From NCBI GenBank assembly GCA_964036045.1, contig OZ038381.1:63922242-63986241 (forward strand): 64,000 nucleotides of DNA, read 5' to 3'. Both the position numbers and the translations under genes were made by a program. Positions within the stretch are counted from its first letter, which is position 1; every line of letters begins with the position of its first letter. Under the pieces are notes generated by a model, which was given only the letters and a program-made list of their open reading frames with translations, was not told the DNA's origin and did no database searches. Shown here in pieces: positions 40,639 to 58,133 of the stretch. This stretch comes from Eutreptiella sp. 'Long Island Sound 2002'. Its lineage: Eukaryota; Euglenozoa; Euglenophyceae; Eutreptiales; Eutreptiaceae.

Positions 40639-41561
40639 CTGCTTGGCGGGTCTGGACGTACAAGCCTGGCTCTGTGTACACATACCCGCATGCACACGAA
40701 ACCCTATTTTTGGACGTTCACTGCTCGTCCCCATTGCGTAAAGGCGAATGCTGCAAAAGCATCTACTCTTCCTTTCTGGGGGAGGCACGCATTCAAGTAC
40801 AACCCAGAACATAAAATACACCATTTGGTTGATTGCACGCTGAGTCCATGGAAAAGGGTGCCTTGCGTGTGACACAGCAGTTGGCAGAAGAAGTGCGGGT
40901 TTCGGATGAAGTTCCAGGCCGTCCTTCTCAGCGCCGAATGCCCTGGGCGAGACTGGCTGTGGGAACGCAAGGGGAAGGCACTGGCACCACACATGCCTAT
41001 GGAATAACCAAAGCCACAAGCAGCAGCAGAAGGGGCGAGAATGGCGGACAGTGTTGCCCTAGTGGCCTGCTCCCTTGGGGACGTGTCAGACACCAAGGCG
41101 CTGTGCGGGCATAGGTGCTCCTGATGGCCTCTCGTGCCAGCGGGATCTTGGCCAGGCCCCACGTGCCTCAGGGGGGGGGGGGGCTAACCAGAGGACGTTC
41201 CCTCACATCCAAGGGAGGCATAGAGGGCGCCGCATTCCCTGCAAGGGAACCATGCTGGTGACATGACGCACGGCTGCATAGAACACAACATTGCAATTGG
41301 TGGAAACATCATGCTGTATCCGGGGCGGAAATGCTTTTAGACCACGCGACGTGGCTGTGAAAGGCTTTGGCAGGTCGGTACACAAAAAATGAAAAAACCT
41401 GCCGAAAAACCGTCCCGAAATTTTGAACATTGCCCGGAAAATGGCCTGGAAGATTTGGCTCTGAGGTTGGCTAGGAGAACGCTACAAACACTGGTGGGCA
41501 TGTTGAGGGCCAGGTTTTGCAAGTTGTCCGGAAAATTGCCAGGCAGCTTTGGTTCCCTTTG

Positions 41562-42419
41562 ATGCCTCAAGATGATGCTGTTTATATCCGTGGCAAGGGC
41601 CCGAGGATATCGGCAGATATCCGTGGCATATGCCCGGGATACAACAGCCACGGATATCTGCCGATATCCCGGGCATATGCCACGGATATCTGCCGAGATC
41701 CCGGGCATATGCCACGGATATCTGTTGGTGTTCAAGTCAAAACTCTCTTGGTCTATCACCGCAAAGACAAGGAAGGGGTTGAAAAAGCCGCCGAGATTCT
41801 TGCACGTTACCAAAAGCCTAAGGAGCTCGAGGTGCCTAAGGTGGAAATTTGTAAGGAGCCAAAAGCGGAGCCTTGCGTTGTCCATGCTAGTCCTCTTAAA
41901 GCTGTTAAAGCTGAGACTGTGGTTGTTCTTGGTAGTCCTATTAAGGCGGAGCCTTGTGCTAACAACCCAATCGTGCACACACCGTCTCCAAAGCACGAGG
42001 TCAATGATCTCACAGCGGAGGAGGACTATGCTACTTTTCCCTTGACACAATTAAGCGAAAAGGAGAACATGGTATATGAGCGTGAGATGTATCGTTCGCG
42101 TGCATGGGCAGCCCCAGCCACACCTGCAAAGGCCCCCACAAGCCAAGATCTCACAGGCATCCCATCTCCTTTTGACTCTGCTAGGTTTGATGGGCCACCC
42201 ACGAAGGTTCGCAAAGTTCAGGTGAAAGAGGAAAAGCAACAATGCTATCGTTGTGACTATCCTATTAAGAAGAATGCTGCATCTGCGGGGCAGCGACCTG
42301 TGACTTGTGATGTTTGTCATGCTATTTACCACTTGTCATGTGCCAATCTTCGGTTTCCTCCAAAGCATGGATCGTGGGCATGTGAGACATGTATGACCGA
42401 AATGATTGGTTCCCAGTAA
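41562..42419 (+). CDS. PHD-finger protein
   Basis: Open frame of 285 codons from an ATG. The first ~60 residues are encoded by the palindromic repeat and look artefactual; from about residue 63 on the sequence is normal (Lys/Glu-rich linker, Pro/Ala spacer). Residues 228-277 form a C4HC3 zinc finger: CYRC, 17 residues, CDVC, H and C in HLSC, then CETC, the PHD pattern that commonly binds histone H3 tails. Stops (TAA) nine residues later. PHD fingers occur both in host chromatin proteins and in ORF1 proteins of some non-LTR retrotransposons; no reverse transcriptase follows, so host gene, gene fragment or ORF1 relic remain open. The true start may be further upstream in an unrecognised exon. 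Confidence 0.6.
   Translation: MPQDDAVYIRGKGPRISADIRGICPGYNSHGYLPISRAYATDICRDPGHMPRISVGVQVKTLLVYHRKDKEGVEKAAEILARYQKPKELEVPKVEICKEPKAEPCVVHASPLKAVKAETVVVLGSPIKAEPCANNPIVHTPSPKHEVNDLTAEEDYATFPLTQLSEKENMVYEREMYRSRAWAAPATPAKAPTSQDLTGIPSPFDSARFDGPPTKVRKVQVKEEKQQCYRCDYPIKKNAASAGQRPVTCDVCHAIYHLSCANLRFPPKHGSWACETCMTEMIGSQ
41605..41724. repeat. palindromic GATATC/CATATG repeat cluster
   Basis: Arms 41605-41626 and 41648-41669 are perfect reverse complements (22 bp). A 27-bp arm at 41614-41640 pairs with both 41666-41692 and 41698-41724. Core words: GCCACGGATATCTGCCG, CCCGGGCATATG. The same words recur at 42.86-43.04 kb. Confidence 0.85.
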
Positions 42420-45567: not shown

Positions 45568-45960
45568 TGCAAGACATGCATGCAGAGGTACAGAGTGACA
45601 GATGAGTAAATGTAACCATGTAGCCACCCCAAAACACCAAGAATGCACCCGACCCAATGAAAAATGGCGAAAAATGGTTTGACAACCCTAACCCTAGCCC
45701 TAACCCTAGCCCTAACCCTACCCTAACCTGGAGGGGACACCTCCAAGTTTATTGCAAGACTTGTATGAAGAGGTACAGAGTGACAAATGAATAGATGTAA
45801 CCATGTAGCCACCCCAAAACACCAAGAATGAACCCGCCCCAATGACAAATGCCAAAAAATAGTACGACAACCCTAACCTTAGCCCTAACCCTAGCCCTAA
45901 CCCTAGCCCACACCCTACCCTAACGTGGAGGGGACACCTGCAAGTTGATTGGAAGACTTG
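45568..45960. repeat. 185-bp tandem repeat with telomere-like CCCTAA tracts
   Basis: Two copies starting TGCAAGAC at 45568 and 45753 share AGGTACAGAGTGACA, ATGTAACCATGTAGCCACC and a tract of CCCTAACCCTAG. CCCTAA is the complement of the TTAGGG telomere repeat. The tract is internal and degenerate. Confidence 0.85.
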
Positions 45961-46189
45961 AATCTATGCATAAGGTGAATAAGGCACCTATGAAGAGACA
46001 TGGAAAACAACCAAACTCGCACCAATTGGAATAAGGAAATGCGCACCCATTCAACCGGAGCCCATGTTTTGGAGTTGCGCATGCATCAACAAGTTACATG
46101 AAGTTTTACACTTAAATTTTTGCACATAGCTACTGTAACAAGCAAAGTCAACAGGTGGTTGACAGTTTTGCTGTAGTTTTGATGGTGGT

Positions 46190-46345
46190 ATTGAGCCTGG
46201 CGTAGGTTCGATTCCTGATTCTGGCATCAGTGCTGGATCGCTCGCCGATCGCTGCCATCAGTGGAGCGATCGCTGCCATCAGCAGAGCGATCTGACAATT
46301 GTTCCCAGAGGGATTCGAACCTTAAGTTATAAAATCGCAGCGCCG
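46190..46345. repeat. inverted pair of tRNA-like B boxes
   Basis: GTAGGTTCGATTCC near 46.20 kb on plus and GGTTCGAATCC near 46.32 kb on minus enclose repeats of GCGATCGCTGCCATCAG. The layout matches the centre of the 44.4-kb element, so this may be a relative of it. Confidence 0.45.
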
Positions 46346-46582
46346 ACTGTGACGCCCTTCAGCGCCGGCGCCTCATCGACTGTCCAGTCATCCCAAAAAT
46401 TTCCCCACCCAGCTGTTCCGCCGGGAGCCCCACCCAGCGCTTCATCATCATTCACCCCCTCCAGGTGGAGGCCTTGCCTACCTAATAGCCCTGGACGGGT
46501 ACGGGACAGCTGGCGATGGCCGCCGGCTGCTATTGCTTATAGAAATGGTGGTGCATTGGATCCTACCTCTTCTACCCATTGA

Positions 46583-47121
46583 CACTTATCTGCTTTAAAA
46601 GCAACGCCATGCACTTCAGTATTTGAGGAAAGTTTCTTTTGGGCCTTATCAGATCAATGGAAACTGATGGGTTACACTGCTGCTCCCTGGCGTGTCACTG
46701 CTACGGCTATCAGCCGTGCAAATGCAAGTGTTGACATGCCCCTCTTAGAGGAGGATTTCCCTCAACTTATTCACCGGGCTGCCCGTGTAGAGGAAATGCA
46801 TGGGAAGTGTGTAAAGAATTTCCGCATTCACCTCGCGAAACATAAGCAGGATGACATCCTGCAAGCTAGAGGCAGAAAGAGGAAGCCAAACGGGCCAGAC
46901 AGCAAGCACAAGCACAGGCGGCACAGGCAAGGGAAGAGAGAGCCAAAGCAAAGCCACCACGGCCACCACCCAAGAAAAGGGAGAGGGCACCGGACACGCA
47001 CACAGCTCACCAGGCTAAGCGTAGGGTGGTTGCTCCTGAAGCACAGGCTATCGTGAACATGTCTGCTCAGCCCAGTCGCTCAGGTTGGGCCCGCGCCATC
47101 CCGCGCCGGCTCCTTGATTGA
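46583..47121 (+). pseudogene. basic coiled-coil protein gene with one frameshift
   Basis: Coherent from 46583 (SVFEESFFWALSDQWKLMGY), through LLEEDFPQLIHRAARVEEMH to about 46865. Then the sensible frame shifts by one and continues KEEAKRARQQAQAQAAQARE, a Pro/Lys stretch and ...PSRSGWARAIPRRLLD to TGA at 47119-47121. Without the shift the tail is His/Lys nonsense. The N-terminal start is unknown (a TGA precedes 46583 in frame). Function unknown. Confidence 0.45.
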
Positions 47122-47124
47122 TGC

Positions 47125-48450
47125 TTTGTGCCCATACGGACCAGCTTAAGTAAATCCAACATTGTGTTGCTTAACATTTTGAATGGTGAAGCTGCTCCAA
47201 TGACTTATTGCTTGCCTTTGTGTAGTGCTATCGTGTGGCCTTGCCCCAACCCTAACCCTAGCAGTGGCAGACAGGGCTGGCTGAGAACTACCAACCGGGT
47301 GTAGGCTAGAAACGACACGTCCAAGGGCGGGCCACGGAAAAAAACCATTGAAGTGTGTTTACTACATCCATATGTACCCGAACAACCCCCCTTCCCCCCC
47401 CCAAGTAGGTGTTTCAACTTTCCTAACGAGCCTTGTCCACCCCTAGCACTGGTCATGAGCCCGAAATCGGGGATCCTGAGTCCCCAATGCGCAAAAAGTA
47501 TGTTATTTGACTTTTTGCGGCAGGAGAAATCTGAGTTGAAAAGTTACTGTTGTGTGCAGAATGCAAAATCCTGACCCAAAATGAGATGGGATGATGGGTT
47601 GATGATGAAGGAGGATCTCCAAATTACAAATGCCGTATGTGAAGTCATTCCACAAATATGAGCCATTGTTGACCCATCTCTGGTCCCAAAACAGCCCATT
47701 TTCAAGGCATTTTGGGATTTTCCATGGCCCAATGCGTGTCACCATAGGCCCCAAATGGGCGAAAAACACTTGTTTGAGCATCCCAAATGGTCCAAGATCA
47801 CTTTCGGACAAGCGCGTTTTTGACCCAATTTTCACCCATGTTTGGTCCCAAAACAACCTATTTTCAAGGCAAAAAGTGATTCTCGACAAATTCGGATGCT
47901 CAAAGAAGTGAAATAAGCCCATTTTCAGACCGCTTTTTCTCAACTACCCCCTTCTGCCTCATGTAGGCATCTTGTAACCTTCACACATACCCGGGGCAGG
48001 GGTGCCACATCGAGAGGTGCCCTCCCAAAGCTGTGCATTTTGTTGCCCAAAACAGACTTTTTTGGCTTGAAACGGCCCCGAACCCCAATCAAAACGGCCA
48101 AAGGAAGGGAAACGGTTGCTTTCTTTTCACGTGCGCCTTGACTGCCCCGTGACAAAGAGCCGTTTCTTGCCCTCTAACTCTACGATATGTCTCAAAAACG
48201 GTGCAAAATGGCTAAAATTGGGCCGAATGTGCGTTGTAGTGTCAAACAGCCACAAAACCAAAAACGGGCCGTATCTTGGGCTATGTGGGGCGGGTTCCGG
48301 TCAGTGGGGGGGGGGGGGGGGCTCCAGCCGCCCAGCCACCCAGCCACCCAGCCACCTTGTCACCTAGCCACCTAACCGTCTAGCCATATTGCGTTTGGCC
48401 TTGCACTTTTGCATTTTGCCTCTTTGCCTTTGCTCTCAAGATTACATGAT
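47125..48450. other. no gene seen; dispersed repeat fragments
   Basis: Contains words TTTGGTCCCAAAAC and CATTTTCAAGGC repeated at 47.65-47.9 kb and again at 55.05-55.1 kb, a run of 18 G near 48.3 kb, and a CCAGCCAC tandem at 48.33-48.38 kb. This is the 5' flank of the retroelement gene. Confidence 0.5.
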
Positions 48451-48634
48451 GATGATGTGTCTCTGCAGCAGGTATTGGTACAATTTCCCAGAAGCATGGC
48501 TGGAAAAAGGCGGCAAGATCGAGATCGAGGTACCACTTGACCTCTGCCTCTCAAATATCTTCCTATCCAAGGAAGACGCGGCAGACAAAGCAAAAGTACC
48601 GGCAGCACGTCGAGGACGTCGATGAGCCAATCCT

Positions 48635-51600
48635 ATGTCGGTGCCGGGGCCAACTCTGGTTGCGTTCCCTACAATGGTGGGGATTTCTGCTATGTGTCGA
48701 GATGTTCCCCGTTCTGATGACGCTGCGGCCCCTACGCCGGACACTGAGGCAGGAAAGCAGGAGTCAGTATCGTCTGCGACACCTACATCTGGTGTGGAAG
48801 GAGCCCTACTTCAGCAACATGATGGTCCACAAGACCTACTTCAACGCCCCGACGAGAGTGCCGAGATGATGCAAGATGATGGCGCTTCAGGAGACGACGT
48901 TCTGTAGACTTCATCTTCATAGACAACGTACTACCAGTCCTTGAGCAACCGACTGACTGCTTTTCTTTCTTCAGCATTATGCCTTCTGTTGCAAATGTCA
49001 TTGAGGAGTCCTTTATGGACTTACCGAAACACATTCGTGATGCGGTGGTTGCAGGGATGACTCGGGTAATGCATCAGGAACGCATGATCGAAAAAATGCA
49101 GTCAATTGTAGAGGGATTGGAACACAATGTTTCGTCGGTAGCAAATGATCTTACACTGCCATGCCTGACGCATAGTCAAATTTGTAAGGACAGGATGAAC
49201 GCGTCCTCACCATCTTTTCCCTCTCTAGATTCACCAGCAAACCCCTGTGATGAGGGTACTGCTTGCTATAAATCCGAGACCCCCCCCACAGACATAGGTG
49301 AACCAGGGTATAAGTGTACTGCAGGTGAGGGACATGAGACATCAGACCCCCCGCCATTAGTCATTGACCCCGACTCCGATACCGAGTCACTGTCAGATAT
49401 GGATGACTGGGATACTGACGAGCCCCCTCTTCGATATGGTACTATGCTTACAGGTAGAGAAGATTTTGAAACCTTTGTGGATAAGACTACCCAGAGCCGT
49501 ACCCTGTCTGTTTTATGGCATAGATTTGCTTCAAAGAAAGGGTGGTCTTCGTGGGACGATATTGATAAAGGAAATTTGTCCAATATTCTTGCTGAATTTA
49601 GACGAATCCAAGACTTCTACCTCCCACAGGAACCCCCTCATTCGATGCATGACAATTTCAGGTTCACTAGTGGGTGGGAGGAATTCTTTACTGAAGTATG
49701 CGGTGTGCAACTATCACTGTGGAGCAATCCATGGGCATCCCCCTCTGCTGAGTATTGGCACCCTGATGACACCGGGGGTTTGGGGATAAAAGCACAAATG
49801 CCATTGCTTCACGTTCTCAATGGACTCCGGGAGGACTCGGCGTGCTTTGTGAATACTGCATTGTGTAGTGATGTGTCTGATGACGTGTTTCGTGTGTTGA
49901 ATAGGAAGTTACGAAGCTTTGAGAAGTTCCGATTGGTGTGTGTCACCCAGAGGAGCGCATCTGCCAAGTGGAATTCCTTCCTGCAAACATGGGAACAAAA
50001 AGGTCGGGCCGTACTCTGCGGTGCGGTCCGGTACATGAACTTCAGAACTTACGGGTGCAGTAAAGAAACTTGGTCTCGTGTTGATGGTCCGTGGGAAGTG
50101 TATGTGCTTGACAGCGGGATCCAACCAGTTGGACATGGAATTTCAGCCAGTAATTACTCGGAGGCACTAAGAGGGCTCATCGGGGGGAAGAGCCGCTCAG
50201 AATGGTTCCCCTTACCCTCGTTCCCTGACGATAAGAGGTGCCAAGGGCATGCAGGGTTTAAACAATCTGAGGTTCAGGATTTTTGGGACAGGTGGGATGC
50301 TATTGCGCTACAGAGAGACAGTCTGTTGAAGGCACGGCCTGTCGACTGGAATGCAGTACGTGAATCACTGCACGACAGCAATCGCCTGCTGTGTGATGCT
50401 AAAGACTCAAGGCTACGCCGAATCGCACGCCTCACGAAGCTACCCCTTACGTGGCGGCTAGATGAGGTAGGATCTTGGGTGTATACAATATGTGGCCCCT
50501 ACCCCCCATACGTTGGTCAAACAGGGTGTTTTCAGAACCAACGCTCATGTATGGAACGCTATAGAGAGCACCTACAGAAAGCCAGATCGTTGGCTAACCA
50601 TTTCTCTGGTATACGCCACAGGAAGATTAGAGCGGCAATGGGTTTCGGGAAACTACCTTCACTGGCACGGATGTTGGCACGCGAAGGCCCCTCTAGGGTC
50701 ACGATTGTGGCGCTACAGGATGTAGCCAACAAACAGGCAGGGGCGGTTGAACGTTGGTGGAACACTGTCCTGGGGCAAACGCTGAACCAGGTAACACCTT
50801 TCGGAGGGATTGACGCCTTCAGGGTTGAGCGCATGCTTGGCGCACACTCCAAGACTGTTTCGCTTGAAAATGCCTCCCTGTCAACGATGGTACACTCCCT
50901 TCTGCGTGAGGGCGAATGCAAAACAGATAAGGAAATGGATGATCGCTGGTGGTTTGTCACACGTGTTGCAGGCAAGATTGAACCGAACCTTTTTGAGAGA
51001 TTTTTCAAACATGTCGTAAAACTCACAGTGCAGAAATGGAAGCTTACAGTCAAGAGACGCTTGGTGTTGCGCATTCCTTGTTTTGACCAGGCCATGCAAG
51101 CTAAGGTGCGAGGGGTGTGTGTAGATGCGATGAAAAAACTACTAATACCCCCTGGTTTGCGGGAGTGGTTTGCTAAATCCATCTGTATTATACCTGTCCC
51201 ATTCGTTACCATCCGAGATGCCCTCAGTGGTGGAGGAAGAACGGTAGCACCAAAATTTGCTGTCCACGCCCTGGAGAACAGACGGGCATGTGATCCCACT
51301 TTCTGCTCCTGGACTCCCCTGCCTAAGGAGTTAGGTGTCTGGAAGGTACAGGGTCCACCAGAGGTTCTGGAACAGGTATGTGAAGAAGCGCTTAGCAGAC
51401 TGAGAGAGCAAACATGCATGTGTTCAGAGATGAGACGAGGTTCCCCTTCTTTTGGCGGATTCCTGGACCATGTGGTAGTACGTACCCCTGAAGATTGGTC
51501 CCATCTTTTTGAGCCTGCGGCAGTGCGGATTTTATCAGCCAATGCCCGGAATCAATTCTTCCCTGACCCAGCTTCCCTGAAACAGCAACTGAAGGAGATG

Positions 51601-52806
51601 AGCACAGCGCTCAACGAGTTAGCTGTAGCACAGGTCTCAGTAGATAAGTGTTGTTTTGAAGCAAAAGGGATTTTCGAACGGGGGATTGTCAAGCAGGCTG
51701 AAAAGGCGCTGTGGGCAACGATCAATACAACAGTTCAACATGGAATTGCACTGGCCCCGTGGCTAAATGGTTCGCAGGTTTATGATCTCAGGTATGATAT
51801 CAGTGAGTTTAACCTCAGGGTCTCAGTCTGGGACAAGAAACTGACCAGACTAGGGGGTCTCTGTTCTATTTTGTATGATCAGCGCACGTTGGAGTCTACT
51901 CTTTTTGGTTCGCGCTTTAAACTATGGGGATGGGCAGAATCCCCAGATGTTGCAAAGCTTGCCATCACACATATGATAGTTCAGAAAGCTAGAGAACAAG
52001 GGATCATTAATGATATGCTGAAGCGACGCCTGGGTCGTGCCTGCTTGGCGCTGCAAGAAGATACGGATGATTTTTTGTTTGAATGTTTTTTGGAGCCACT
52101 GCCAAACAAACGGTACCCGAAGGCACCGGCTGTGTTTTCGCTGCCAAAATGGAAGTCAACAGAATATGTCCCCAATGAACCAGCCCTGAAATGGCGAGAC
52201 ATCGTCTCCTATAAATCACACGTCTTGCAATCCTACAGTAGGGTAATATCCAGGTCATTGCAACTTCTGTGCGCGCACCTGCATGGTTCCGGAGTGAGCC
52301 TGGGCTTTCCTAACATGCTAGGCGTACGTGACCAGATTAAAGCAGTGCAGAGGTTTGCTTCCCAAGGTGACGCAGTGAGTTTCAGGGAGCGAGATATGGA
52401 TGATATGGTCTGGCAGATCGAGCGTTCAGAGGCGCTCACAGCAATCCGATGGGCTGTGGATAGGGCACGGGCTGAATCGCGGGGTTCCACATTGTGGTTT
52501 AGCATTGCCAAGGGCCTGGAGAAAGATCTTGACAGGTTTGGGAAAAATTCTGCGAAGTCCTTTGTTACACTTTCCGAAGAGGAGGTGCTGCGTTTTGTAG
52601 AGTTTGATATGGCTGAGAATGTGTTTTTGACTGTTGGCCCTATTATATTAAGCCAAGGAGCAAAAGGGATACCCATTGGTGGGTTCCTATCTGCTCAAAT
52701 TGCAGAAATCTGGGCCTGCTGGAGAGAGTTTACCAGTCTTTTTGGTGAGCACGTTTCACAGGTCCAGCCTGTGCCACTTTTTCTCAGGAGAAAGGTGTCA
52801 TTGTAA
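48635..52806 (+). CDS. retroelement protein: GIY-YIG nuclease plus reverse transcriptase, main part
   Basis: ATG at 48635 opens an acidic N-terminal exon; a 71-nt intron (48904-48974) joins it in frame to a 1,275-codon frame starting at ATG 48979. Numbered from 48979: helical N-terminus, acidic linker to ~150, globular region, then a GIY-YIG-type domain at ~500-605 (VYT at 501-503, YVG at 511-513, Arg in ERYREHL, Glu591 in AVERWW, Asn603). The reverse-transcriptase core follows: motif A FRERDMDDM (1135-1143) and motif B GIPIGGFLSAQ (from 1230). Motif C lies in the next frame (52749-53795). N-terminal GIY-YIG order recalls the Naiad/Chlamys branch of Penelope-like elements, but the RT motifs are unlike theirs. 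The frame ends in TAA at 52804-52806, inside GTAAGC. Confidence 0.8.
48904..48974 (+). other. spliceosomal intron in the retroelement gene
   Basis: GTAGAC donor (overlapping the in-frame TAG), branch-like CTGAC, polypyrimidine TTTTCTTTCTTCAG acceptor. Removal joins ...GDDV-L-I-MPSV... in frame and replaces the stop. Confidence 0.7.
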
Positions 52807-53795
52807 GCTGTGAGATTCCTGGAGCTCCGGAGGTGGTCTGTCACCACCCAGGGGCAGAGATCTTGGCGCATGACATGTTTGTCGCCAAAAATGTCCACCA
52901 AGCGACTCCTGAAGCCCTGTGTCAATCTGGGTTTACAGGCTGGTGGTCTCCAGCAGACAGAATTTTCGCCACTGCCACTGTTGCAGACAAAACCTTTCAG
53001 TTTATCTGCACTACCCCGTGGGATGGGGCTGAGGGAGGTAGACTGCAGAGCATTGTCAGGCATTCCACTCGTAAAAATAGGCGGCTTGTGATGAAGTTTT
53101 TCGAGAATTTTGATGCCCTGAATGGGGTGGTGGGGGAGATTCTGTCTGCTAGGCAGATGGGTGCCTGTGCAGGCCCCATGCCTCTGTCAAAGCCAGCAGT
53201 GATCATGTCTAGGTACAGAGATAACATTTATATTGCCCTGGTTGGGATCTCCCCCTGTTTTGTGGCGCCGCTGACGTTCATTATTGAACAGATGACTTCT
53301 ATTATTTATGGTATACCTTTGAAATGGGAACCCCATGGTGATGTGACCACCTGGGGTGAAGCGGCAGTAATCTTGGCACATCGCACTAGTGCCTATGTGC
53401 AGGACTTTGCACTGCACATAAAGGGTGTGGTGCATGATCTTGAAGCGTGGAGGCAAGGTGTAACAGATGCCGAGTGGGAACAATGGGTTGATGCCCATTC
53501 TCCAAATGCACGTACAGTCCTGAAATCTTTTTTGCCTTCTGTTTTTTATAAATCTCTGCTTTACGCTCTCAGTCCACAGGATGTTACCTGTAATTTACGG
53601 TCACTACTCTGGGGTTTGGGCGTGAGGGCCTACCCAGATCAGTGGTGGCGTCCCTTGCTTTTGCGGTTTTTTAAAAGATTCAGATTGCATAGAATTTTAG
53701 GTTTCAAGGTGTTGATTCGCTGGTTCCATGAGGGACGAGGGGTGGTAATTGGCACCAAGGCGAACAGGGAGCAGACCCAAGTGCACAGGTGCTGA
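52749..53795 (+). CDS. retroelement protein, C-terminal part with RYRDN catalytic box
   Basis: Open in a frame shifted by -1 from the main ORF for about 350 codons, ending with TGA at 53793-53795. It includes SPADRIFATATVADKTFQF, PWDGAEGGRLQSIVRH, the motif C block IMSRYRDNIYIAL (D at 53220-53222, N at 53223-53225), then thumb-like helices. In the canonical YxDD box the second Asp is replaced by Asn. Link to the main frame: either a -1 shift between 52749 and 52806, or an intron with donor GTAAGC at 52803; acceptors at 52960 and 53152 would both restore frame. With full readthrough, motifs B and C are about 185 residues apart, unusually far; splicing to 53153 gives a more usual spacing. Confidence 0.75.
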   Translation, partial: ARFTGPACATFSQEKGVIVSCEIPGAPEVVCHHPGAEILAHDMFVAKNVHQATPEALCQSGFTGWWSPADRIFATATVADKTFQFICTTPWDGAEGGRLQSIVRHSTRKNRRLVMKFFENFDALNGVVGEILSARQMGACAGPMPLSKPAVIMSRYRDNIYIALVGISPCFVAPLTFIIEQMTSIIYGIPLKWEPHGDVTTWGEAAVILAHRTSAYVQDFALHIKGVVHDLEAWRQGVTDAEWEQWVDAHSPNARTVLKSFLPSVFYKSLLYALSPQDVTCNLRSLLWGLGVRAYPDQWWRPLLLRFFKRFRLHRILGFKVLIRWFHEGRGVVIGTKANREQTQVHRC

Positions 53796-54044
53796 TGTAC
53801 TGTGTTTTTTTCGGCACCACCAGACAGGTATCCACTGCTGGTGCAGACCTGCAAGAGGCGTTTATGCGAAATAATCTGGAGTTAGGGTGCAGAACATGAA
53901 AGACAGGGATTGAACTCATGGTGTATGTGGATACATTTTTTTCTGCACACGCTTGGTTTCAGTCTTTGATCACTGATGAGTGTTTTGCTGCTCGTGTAGC
54001 CCTCTTTCTCTTGAACAACCTGCACCTACGTTTGTCATGTTTGT

Positions 54045-54084
54045 GTAATTAGGTAATTAGGTAATTAGGTAATTAGGTAATTAG
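54045..54084 (+). repeat. five perfect GTAATTAG repeats
   Basis: 8-bp unit, five copies, directly after the retroelement 3' region. Short tandem repeats at the 3' end are common in non-LTR elements and may mark its terminus. Confidence 0.95.
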
Positions 54085-54089
54085 TTGCA

Positions 54090-55620
54090 TTATGCATCGG
54101 GATGTGGTTATGGGATGTTTGGTCCAGTTGCACAATCACCAACACAACTGCCGCTGCAGTGTGTTGTAGCGTCCCCGTGTCCAACTAAGGTCGGCCAGCA
54201 TGCATGGAGCTGCCCCAGTGCATGTGTTTTTTAGATAGGAAAAAATGTGTGAACTTGTTGGCATCTTTGCACAAAAAATTCACATGCGTCGACAGGACCG
54301 GGGATGTAGAATGGCCGAGCCCCATGGCGCGTTGGGGTTTAAAGACGGGACGCGCCACCATTCGCAAACCAGCCTTACTGGCACTGTATGTACGGTATGG
54401 TATAGAGAGGCCAAAACATTTTTCCACGGTTGGTGCATAATTAGGCGTCTGTTTCAATTAGGCGTTTGGTTTAATGAGTAGTGCATGCTGCATGCTAACA
54501 AGGTCTATTCCGTGCAATGTCAATTTTTGTGCCGTGTTATCCACCTTTTTCTTAATTTTTTCCACGTCATTTTGATTGGTCCCATTTTAGGTTTTTCTAT
54601 CTAATGAGTGATAATTTGTCATTTGCCCACGTACGTGCAAAAGTGCGTGCGGCTACGTGCCCGGGGCTGAACTTCTGGGAGAAGTCATGCAACGGCAAGG
54701 CATTTCCCCCCCAGCCATTTTTGGCCAGCCGTGGCCAGCCACGGGGGGGGAGGGGGGGAGGGGGGGAGGGGGGGGGGGGGGTCCAACCCGCCCAGCCGCG
54801 GCTAGCCGCGGCTAGGAACACCCCCGTGGCTGAAAACCGCATTCCGAGAGCACCTGTATACACGCCACCCACCACTTTTTGTGGTTTTCAAGCCTCAGAT
54901 TCGCCCCACAAGACGCCCAAACCCCCGTTCCGGTGGTCACTTGGTGGAGCCGGAGGGCAGCCCGGCCCGCGCACGGTGAGGGCCAATGGTCCCCGGGGCG
55001 AAAAAATCATTTTTTCCACGGTTGTTCCTCGACGCTTTTGGGACTTTTTGAAAAACATCTTTTTGACCCATTTTTCACAAATCTTTGGTCCCAAAACGGC
55101 CGATTTTCTATCATGAAAACGGGCCATTAACCCGTTTTCCTCAATGAAAACGGGCTGCAAAAGGTGCTTGCGCACCTTGTAACTACGAAGTAAAGGCCCA
55201 AAGTGTTTCTCAGGTAAAAACCAGGTAAAAACCAGGTAAAATGGGTAAAAATTCAATAACTGGCTTTGTGCGTGTTTGCTCGCTTTGCCCTCTCTTAGGA
55301 TGTGTAACGGACACATTTGCATGCAAATAAGCTGAAATATGGGTGAAAACGGAGGTGTTTTGCCACTTTTACGTGTCCCGCACCACACCACCCCCATGTA
55401 CGTGCAATTATTGCCCTTTGCTGCCTTTTTTAAATTGCGCGTGTAAGAGGGTGTATTTGCGTGGTTACTATAAGTTCAGCTCGTACGCCAAAAGGGTAAT
55501 TTACGCACGTAAAAGGGTGTATTTACTTGTCTCGTGAATTCCGTTGCGGACGCAAATTAGGTCTTTTGCGCACGCAAAATCCATGTAATTGCCTCTTCAC
55601 TCTTTGGGGCTTCTCTTTCA
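54090..55620. other. no gene seen; G-run spacer
   Basis: Includes a 40-bp G-rich tract with regularly spaced A (54744-54782) and a repeated CAGGTAAAAAC word at 55.21-55.24 kb. Open frames are short. Confidence 0.5.
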
Positions 55621-55886
55621 TGGGACATGCCTGGCAGGAAGTCCAAAGCCAAGGCCGCTGTCCAAGCCCCCGGGGACCCGCATCCACCGCCCAAGCCCGC
55701 CCCTTCTCCCCGCACTACCCACGAGCCCACCAAGGAGGTTGTTGATGAGTATGTGAAGGTGGTGGGTGTGGAAAATGTGGCGGGAACTGGTCTCCACGTG
55801 TTGTGTGGTGTGCCACGAAGGTACCTGTACGAAAGCCCCGCTTGAAACAAGAAACCACAAGTAACCCACCTACATGTTGAGTTGGG

Positions 55887-56289
55887 TCACAACCCATGAA
55901 CTATTTGAACTTGGTACATGTGGAAGCCTTTTGGTGCCTTCACTTCTTTGTTGCGCATGCCTAGGGTAAAGATAGCATTTTTGTCGCAACATCCATTTTT
56001 GCACGAAGGGGTCTACGAAAGGGGTACGAAAGGGTGTACGAAAGGCATGTACGACAGGGGGGTATTCGTAGATTTTGTACGAAAGGGGTGCATTCGTACC
56101 CCCAAGGGAGCGGCGCGCCACCGTGATGCGGCCAAACATGGTACCGGCATCAATATGCGGAAGGGTGTGCAAATCATCGATAGGGCAGACTTGGGTAGTA
56201 CTGCCTTGGGGGCCATGGAAAACCCCTTGCCCAACCTGCTGGCGGCATGTGTCCACCTTATCTTGCAGGAGGTCCTGGGCGGCGGACAT
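55887..56289 (-). CDS. small two-exon gene nested in a plus-strand intron
   Basis: ATG at 56287-56289; exon 1 56100-56289, exon 2 55887-55960, joined across a 139-nt GT-AG intron (GTACGAATG...TTACCCTAG). The join is in frame and gives 87 residues: MSAAQDLLQDKVDTCRQQV, a middle part with LHTLPHIDAGTMFGRIT, and GFHMYQVQIVHGL before TGA. The N-terminal helix resembles those of the other small genes here (e.g. MASQELMDELL at 13.8 kb). The intron consists largely of CCTTTCGTAC repeats. Function unknown. Confidence 0.55.
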
Positions 56290-56478
56290 TGTGAAAAAGG
56301 AGGTCCCCCTAGAGTAATAGCTAAGAGTAGGATGAAGGAAGCATGAAACAAAGGTGACCAAAAAGAAAGAGGTTTGAGTAAGTTGGAAATTACCCAGGAA
56401 ACATGAACTACGAAAGGGTGCACGAAAGGGGTACGAAGGCACATCTAAGTTGTAGAAAAGGGTACGAAAGGGTGTACG
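56005..56478. repeat. GTACGAAAGG repeat clusters in introns
   Basis: Cluster 1 (56005-56098) lies in the intron of the minus gene; cluster 2 (56404-56478) forms the 3' end of the plus-gene intron. Both consist of GTACGAAAGG(G/T)-type units, mostly 9-13 bp apart. Confidence 0.8.
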
Positions 56479-58133
56479 AAAGCCACCAAACAAGCCCGTG
56501 CCCTCACCAACTTCCTTGGGGCCACCTACGATCACAACCCCCATCTCTCCGCCTTTAGCGTTGCCCTCCCCGGTCCTGATATGGATGATTTGTTCGAAGG
56601 TTTGGAGGGACAACTGCCGGACAAGGTGGGTCAGAGGCAGAGTTATGGTGCGGTGGCGGCTGATGGGGCGTTGAACATCCATAGTGCTAAGGGGGAAAAG
56701 TCACAACACTACAACACTAGGATGGTTGAAAAGGAGGACATGCATAGGACATCCACTGTGTACATACAGCCTCACCACTGAGCCTGATAGGATGTGGATT
56801 GACGACCTGAGTGGACAGACAACACCAGTGGCCTACACAGGATCCAAGTTTGTGGCTTTGCCTACATTGACCCCACAGCCCCTGATTGGGCATGCCGAGG
56901 GTGTTGTGGCAGGTAGCACCTGTTTTGGTGACAGGAACCCCCACACCTATGGAGGGACAGCAGCTGGCTTGGGCCAAGGTGTGGATGAGGAATTGCTACT
57001 GCGGGACTTTGCAGACGAGGATCAGCTTATGGCCCTGTCGCAGGAGGCAATGACAGTGGGCTGGGGGGGAAATGGGTCAGAGGGTGCCAAGACCTGCCTA
57101 GCCCAGCTACAAGACTCCTACAAGGAGGTGATTGCTGAAGCCTCTCGTATCCCTGCTGCAGAAAGGCTCGCCCCCCGCAAGAAAAAGGAGGGAGCCTTTG
57201 ACCTGACCTCAAGCAAGGTCTTTCTAACCTCGCACCCCAACATGCAAAAGGTAGTTGCTGCGGTCCGTCAGGTTGTTGGGGCCCAAATTGGTGGCGAGCC
57301 AGCGGGTGTTGTGGTGCACCGCATCTTATTGGCCTTTTACCGGCTATATGGCTTTTGGAGATCAAAGGTGTATTTGAGTGACGCAGCGCTTGCTGCAGCC
57401 AAGGAGGTTCAACAAACCTTTGCACAGGAGTGGAAGAAAACTGGTTGGGTACCTGTGACATGGGTGCATTGGGCTGCTTGTCATTCAGGTGTCTTCCTAA
57501 GTTGATACCGCGGCCTATATATGTTTTCCACGATTCCAACTGAAAAGAAAAATAGTGCCTTCAAGCTTGACCTGGGGCATCTTTTCCGGGAATGGTCCAT
57601 CACCCGACCGATTTACACTAGGCGGGGTCTATTGCATCTCGTAAACAACCATGCACTGGACCTTGGGTTGCTTCTGCGGAGGGCCCAGAGGGAGGGAAGT
57701 GAGATCCAATTGAAAAAGAGGAGGAGGATGCCCGGTCCAGACGGAGAACAATGACCCCCCCCACCCCTCCCCACAACAATTGCAAGCCAAAAACTGGGGG
57801 CCGGTGGCCCTTTCATTTCCATTTTTGTTGCCTGTCTTCAGCGCCGGTGTGTGGTGTGCACCGTTCTGACCTCGGCATGGTCACAGCCCTCTTGCAGCAG
57901 CGCCTGGCCGATGGTGCCGGAGCTGTGGCATTGTCTTGAAGCACCTGCGTGTAACACATGTGGGACTGCATACGTGGGGATGGGGGGATGGGGTTCAAAC
58001 CGGGGAATGGGGGGCATGAACCTAGGGGGCATACCTGTGGACCACCAGCGCACATGGCAGAGACATTGTAATTATGCATCATTGAACTGGGGTGTGGGTC
58101 CCATGCATTGGGGCACCAATGAAAAAACAAAAC

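Follow-up and report, generated by a model that had tools for sequence, protein, structure and literature searches.

We analysed a 64,000-nucleotide stretch of the genome of the euglenophyte Eutreptiella sp. 'Long Island Sound 2002' (assembly GCA_964036045.1, contig OZ038381.1, forward-strand positions 63,922,242 to 63,986,241), called here the window, which holds a damaged copy, 5′-truncated and frame-broken, of a dispersed multicopy retroelement. Two open reading frames (ORFs), at 48979-52806 and 52833-53795 in adjoining frames, carry the motifs DMDDM, GIPIGG and RYRDN of a putative reverse transcriptase (RT), just as the initial annotation had described. They are pieces of one gene, ORF2, which is continuous in the database protein P0003 and at locus L012 of the same genome. 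The frame is broken in the window by a 16-bp deletion near 52,764, and as alignment showed that three near copies (L011, L012 and L013) all lack the deletion, a programmed frameshift or an intron at the junction was ruled out. The element had been placed at 48635-53795; the feature is real, while its true limits are 48487 and 54021, and the window sequence outside them is unrelated to the flanks of L011 and L013. An ORF1 lies upstream, and the small ORF at 48635 falls within its tail, which has decayed. Motif A is present as DMDDM, and the valine that follows it in the window (DMDDMVW) is private to this copy, the other 14 genomic loci that we read having phenylalanine there.

The assembly (2.28 Gb in 2205 contigs) was searched with the first ORF as query. 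Scoring the best 36 of 4301 first-look candidates gave at least 41 matches on 17 contigs, some of them pieces of one copy. Together with database relatives reaching down to 29% identity, these matches indicate that the first ORF is more than a chance reading frame; no relatives were found in collections of viral contigs and genome contigs. Three matches (L004, L005 and L006; with their flanks, L011, L012 and L013) are 98% identical in protein to the window ORF, most others lie at 64-75%, some fragments at 89-91%, and the weakest at 49% and 40%. Fifteen loci, the window and L011-L024, were read in detail. The window copy and its three close relatives share one 3′ end (window 54021), after which the sequences are unrelated, and their 5′ ends differ: 48487 in the window, the equivalent of about 48666 in L012, and two different points inside ORF1 in L013 and L011. 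ORF2 is intact in L012 (1,612 amino acids). A related subfamily contains near-identical full-length copies, C5a (unit of 6,870 bp) and C10 (6,869 bp), in which both ORF1 (575 amino acids) and ORF2 (1,596 amino acids) are open, and ORF2 is also intact in C24 (1,598 amino acids) and C341 (1,596 amino acids). ORF1 has a single CCHH knuckle-like motif and gave no credible Pfam match. By the Nei-Gojobori method, point estimates of non-synonymous over synonymous divergence (dN/dS) for ORF2 were 0.006/0.033 (C5a-C24), 0.003/0.020 (C5a-C10) and 0.003/0.019 (C5a-C341), and for the RT part 0.006/0.037, 0.004/0.023 and 0.004/0.023, respectively. Between C5a and L012 the proportion of non-synonymous differences (pN) was 0.208 and the synonymous proportion was saturated; the putative GIY-YIG block was the most conserved part (pN 0.048). 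As a separate observation, the 5′ parts of the C3 (L020+L033) and C341 (L035+L016) loci share about 1.6 kb at 97%, possibly another repeat family.

In several copies a partial copy lies upstream of the unit and creates direct repeats, which measure 745 bp in C5a, 738 bp in C14, 906 bp in C1 and 991 bp in C24 and are 99.7%, 99.7%, 98.0% and 98.6% identical within the element, respectively; there is a longer tandem in C10, and C5b has tandem units of 812 bp. The upstream repeat is joined to the unit head-to-tail, stops at the element's 3′ terminus and includes the last ~172 codons of ORF2. In C5a, C14, C10 and C1 the 3′ terminus abuts the 5′ terminus at the junction; C24 lacks this direct join. 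Repeats are more similar inside an element than from one element to another in C5a, C14 and C1, which points to a single template, whereas those of C24 do not follow this pattern. The start of the upstream repeat is near-constant in C5a, C14, C1 and C19, about 24-32 nucleotides past the RYRDN codons as counted from alignments, in subfamilies that are only ~75% identical at that place. This recurrence in two subfamilies (L025+L015, L019+L029, L030+L021 and L032+L014) suggests that the RNA starts or is processed at a fixed site. Tandem and partial-tandem copies forming pseudo-long terminal repeats (pseudo-LTRs), which the available excerpt of PMC11167929 gives as the organisation of Penelope-like elements, are thus found here as well.

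Ahead of the RT motifs, ORF2 encodes a predicted GIY-YIG nuclease domain, a prediction made from signature residues. Across a 125-residue block aligned in five sequences, 22 columns are invariant, among them Y8, Y17, G19, R33, H37, E97 and N109, and their order matches that of the GIY-YIG superfamily as given in the excerpt of PMC1564403. The ordered pattern, which was written after seeing the family, occurred in all nine proteins examined, compared with 3 of 5000 shuffles. That GIY-YIG precedes RT in a single protein, as first proposed from the window, holds without interruption in the database proteins P0004 and P0005 (the latter the sole return of protein search A5) and in five intact ORF2s of this genome.

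Two aspartates in motif C are a general feature of RTs, and the second of them is replaced by asparagine in this family. RYRDN, or a close form with the asparagine, was seen at all 15 genomic loci (at 13 through a pattern match, at L021 and L022 from the DNA itself), and the second tandem copy in C10 carries it too. Among the 11 database proteins found, eight reach motif C, seven with asparagine and one with glycine. The departure from YxDD noted in the window is therefore a stable family trait, a local mutation being rejected since the asparagine is common to the whole family, and no relative with two aspartates at this site was found in the 15 loci or the eight proteins. The residue is old within the family, as the RT segments of its main lineages are only 33-46% identical. 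The only relative read without it, P0010 (RYRDG), has alanine instead of glycine in the glycine box of motif B as well, and is perhaps a decaying copy. Between motifs B and C lie 187-224 residues. In the fold ranking of the predicted RT, telomerase came first, about 1.6 Z ahead of other RTs.

Table 1. Parts of the retroelement copy in the window (window positions).
Feature	Position	Strand	Details
Retroelement copy, 5′-truncated	48487-54021	+	DNA homology to L011/L013 runs between these limits
ORF1 tail remnant with in-frame stop	48487-48907	+	Frame translation; resembles L015 ORF1; tblastn match of ORF1
ORF2, first piece	48979-52806	+	1275 amino acids; N-terminal region, GIY-YIG signature, middle region, RT motifs 1, 2, A and B
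Predicted GIY-YIG nuclease domain	50461-50835	+	Residues 495-619; signature residues
RT motif 2 (RDIVS)	52195-52209	+	Residue 1073
RT motif A (DMDDMVW)	52393-52413	+	
RT motif B (GIPIGG)	52666-52683	+	
Site of frame-breaking 16-bp deletion	52764-52765	+	Alignment with L011, L012 and L013
ORF2, second piece	52833-53795	+	320 amino acids, other frame; RT motif C to thumb
RT motif C (RYRDNIY)	53211-53231	+	Asn at position of second catalytic Asp
3′ untranslated end of element	53796-54021	+	3′ end common to four copies

Around the element, a perfect (GTAATTAG)x5 array lies at 54045-54084, about 23 bp past the 3′ end; it was rejected as a 3′ tail of the element because the homology of the four copies stops before it. 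Interstitial telomere-like CCCTAACCCTAG arrays occur a few kb upstream (45684-45728, 45871-45924 and 47250). An ORF at 41517-42419 has a PHD-finger-like C-terminus (PF00628, E 0.00055, under the curated cut-off), the window as a whole contains 43 runs of at least 9 G or C, and repeat-rich blocks lie near 7.6-11.4 kb and 14.5-16.8 kb.

The organisation, the domain order and the predicted fold together argue for a divergent Penelope-like element with the nuclease before the polymerase. We consider it probable that the window copy belongs to a dispersed retroelement in which a single reading frame, where intact, specifies first a predicted GIY-YIG nuclease and then a predicted RT of telomerase-like kind, and which likely moves in the manner of Penelope-like elements, by target-primed reverse transcription. 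That the family works like a Penelope-like element we hold with moderate confidence. The RT motifs had initially been judged unlike that branch, but the suggestion that the element lies apart from Penelope-like elements is not supported: the organisation is Penelope-like and the predicted RT fold is nearest to telomerase.

Several results weigh against this reading. None of the domain libraries tried gave an RT or GIY-YIG family match at the sequence level, and GIY-YIG profile tests and sequence searches of the PDB returned nothing credible. Aligned by hhalign to eight phage GIY-YIG proteins, the GIY-YIG block reached a probability of 0.5 per cent (E 0.11), barely better than the top-scoring one among five control blocks (0.3 per cent, E 0.17). 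Its fold model was poor (mean predicted local distance difference test score 47.7), and a fold search with this low-confidence model was uninformative. Foldseek with the RT model gave no match at E <= 0.001 and also listed hepatitis C virus polymerases and LINE-1, and the motif B loop of that model was of low confidence. Rfam listings of window 46000-56500 and six loci contained no hammerhead ribozyme, a feature common in the pseudo-LTRs of Penelope-like elements, yet not a defining one; matches in L014, L015 and L022 under the gathering cut-off were set aside. While Penelope-like elements make a short target-site duplication according to the excerpt of PMC3846280, no convincing one was seen in 10 insertions, one of which (L011) had been given a wrong boundary and some of which had uncertain 5′ ends.

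Compared with known systems, the family is most simply read as divergent from, but related to, those Penelope-like elements that have GIY-YIG at the N-terminus. In that group, Naiad/Chlamys, GIY-YIG is N-terminal to the RT, and the likeness extends to the signature ahead of RT in one protein and to the tandem, pseudo-LTR organisation; compared by description only, the family here differs in its motif C asparagine, its spacing between motifs B and C and the lack of a family match. Since its motif C has a single aspartate, we have not filed it under a named clade. Telomerase RT is a host gene and not a dispersed repeat, whereas the family here is mobile, occurs in many copies and has in addition a predicted nuclease and the motif C asparagine. 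BEL/Pao elements are LTR elements with integrase and RNase H; here the repeats are head-to-tail partial copies, and two intact ORF2s showed no Pfam match to these domains or to any other. Nematode BEL/Pao elements with YVDN (Cer7-Cer12 and Atlas virus) do share the lineage-wide asparagine in place of the second aspartate, but are LTR retroelements with Gag-Pol-Env, as far as the excerpts of PMC554778 and PMC9094657 describe them; the two changes were probably independent. Penelope/Poseidon elements, in the excerpted account of PMC11167929, resemble the family in pseudo-LTRs, partial tandem copies and a GIY-YIG domain with telomerase-like RT (both predicted here), and differ in their C-terminal nuclease and hammerhead ribozyme. 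The element described here, moreover, has two ORFs.

The absence of a family match, the asparagine, the long segment between motifs B and C and a telomerase lead of only ~1.6 Z would also fit a deep-branching RT lineage of its own, either the sister group of Penelope-like elements plus telomerase or one outside them, and similar to them in domain content and tandem organisation. We regard this as unlikely in view of the pseudo-LTRs, the nuclease signature of Penelope-like kind and the first rank of telomerase. Less probable still is that the asparagine is the mark of an RT that is dead or has been domesticated, in which case the protein would be structural or act in trans and other enzymes would copy the element. 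Retroviral RTs, according to the excerpt of PMC554778, need either aspartate of YxDD and are inactive once one is changed, which also weighs against an active enzyme here; yet the dN/dS of the RT part is as low as that of the rest of ORF2, the motif A aspartate and the first motif C aspartate are kept, and two near-identical full-length copies have open ORFs. Moreover, viral polymerases changed at the second motif C aspartate show less activity or an altered metal need rather than inactivation, and Mononegavirales and Birnaviridae have at this position an asparagine that is itself essential (excerpt of PMC4634563). The YVDN of Cer7-Cer12 (PMC554778) and the same substitution in nematode belpaoviruses (PMC9094657), both taken from excerpts, show that another branch of RTs offers a precedent for the asparagine. 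We find it highly improbable that the family is an LTR retrotransposon or a LINE-type element, for although direct repeats of up to 99.7% identity inside one element and their recurrent 5′ start could suggest one, the upstream repeat runs into the unit and ends at the element's 3′ terminus with the last codons of ORF2, copies are 5′-truncated, integrase and RNase H are unmatched and the predicted fold is telomerase-like.

In a Penelope-like element of this kind, the GIY-YIG domain would nick the target DNA, and the freed 3′ end would prime copying of the element RNA, beginning at the RNA 3′ end; incomplete copying would leave 5′ truncations, and tandem RNA templates would yield pseudo-LTRs. 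ORF1, with its CCHH knuckle, may bind RNA. The RT would be active, the motif A aspartate and the first motif C aspartate holding the metal with the asparagine assisting, perhaps with a changed metal preference. With asparagine at all 15 genomic loci read, the element probably replicates through an unusual active site. A word-matched search of the open-access literature found no report of a Penelope-like RT with asparagine in motif C. Two outcomes had been named at the start as speaking against a poorly described RT lineage, homologues with the aspartate pair and a confident match to a described family; neither was encountered in the genomic loci, database proteins or family searches, and the profile searches bear out that description.

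It is possible, and we put it forward tentatively, that the family represents a eukaryotic lineage of RTs not described before, standing next to telomerase and Penelope-like elements, whose palm has a large insertion between motifs B and C and which replicates by means of an Asp-Asn active site. If so, a mobile RT of this branch can function without the second catalytic aspartate. As the family was missed by all the domain libraries tried, other large genomes may contain similar elements that go without annotation. Few polymerase sites are as conserved as RT motif C, and a multicopy, selected lineage with a fixed asparagine there, belonging to the branch whose predicted fold is nearest to telomerase, is natural material for probing the role of the second aspartate. 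The family could also give a divergent point for work on the relationship between telomerase and Penelope-like elements.
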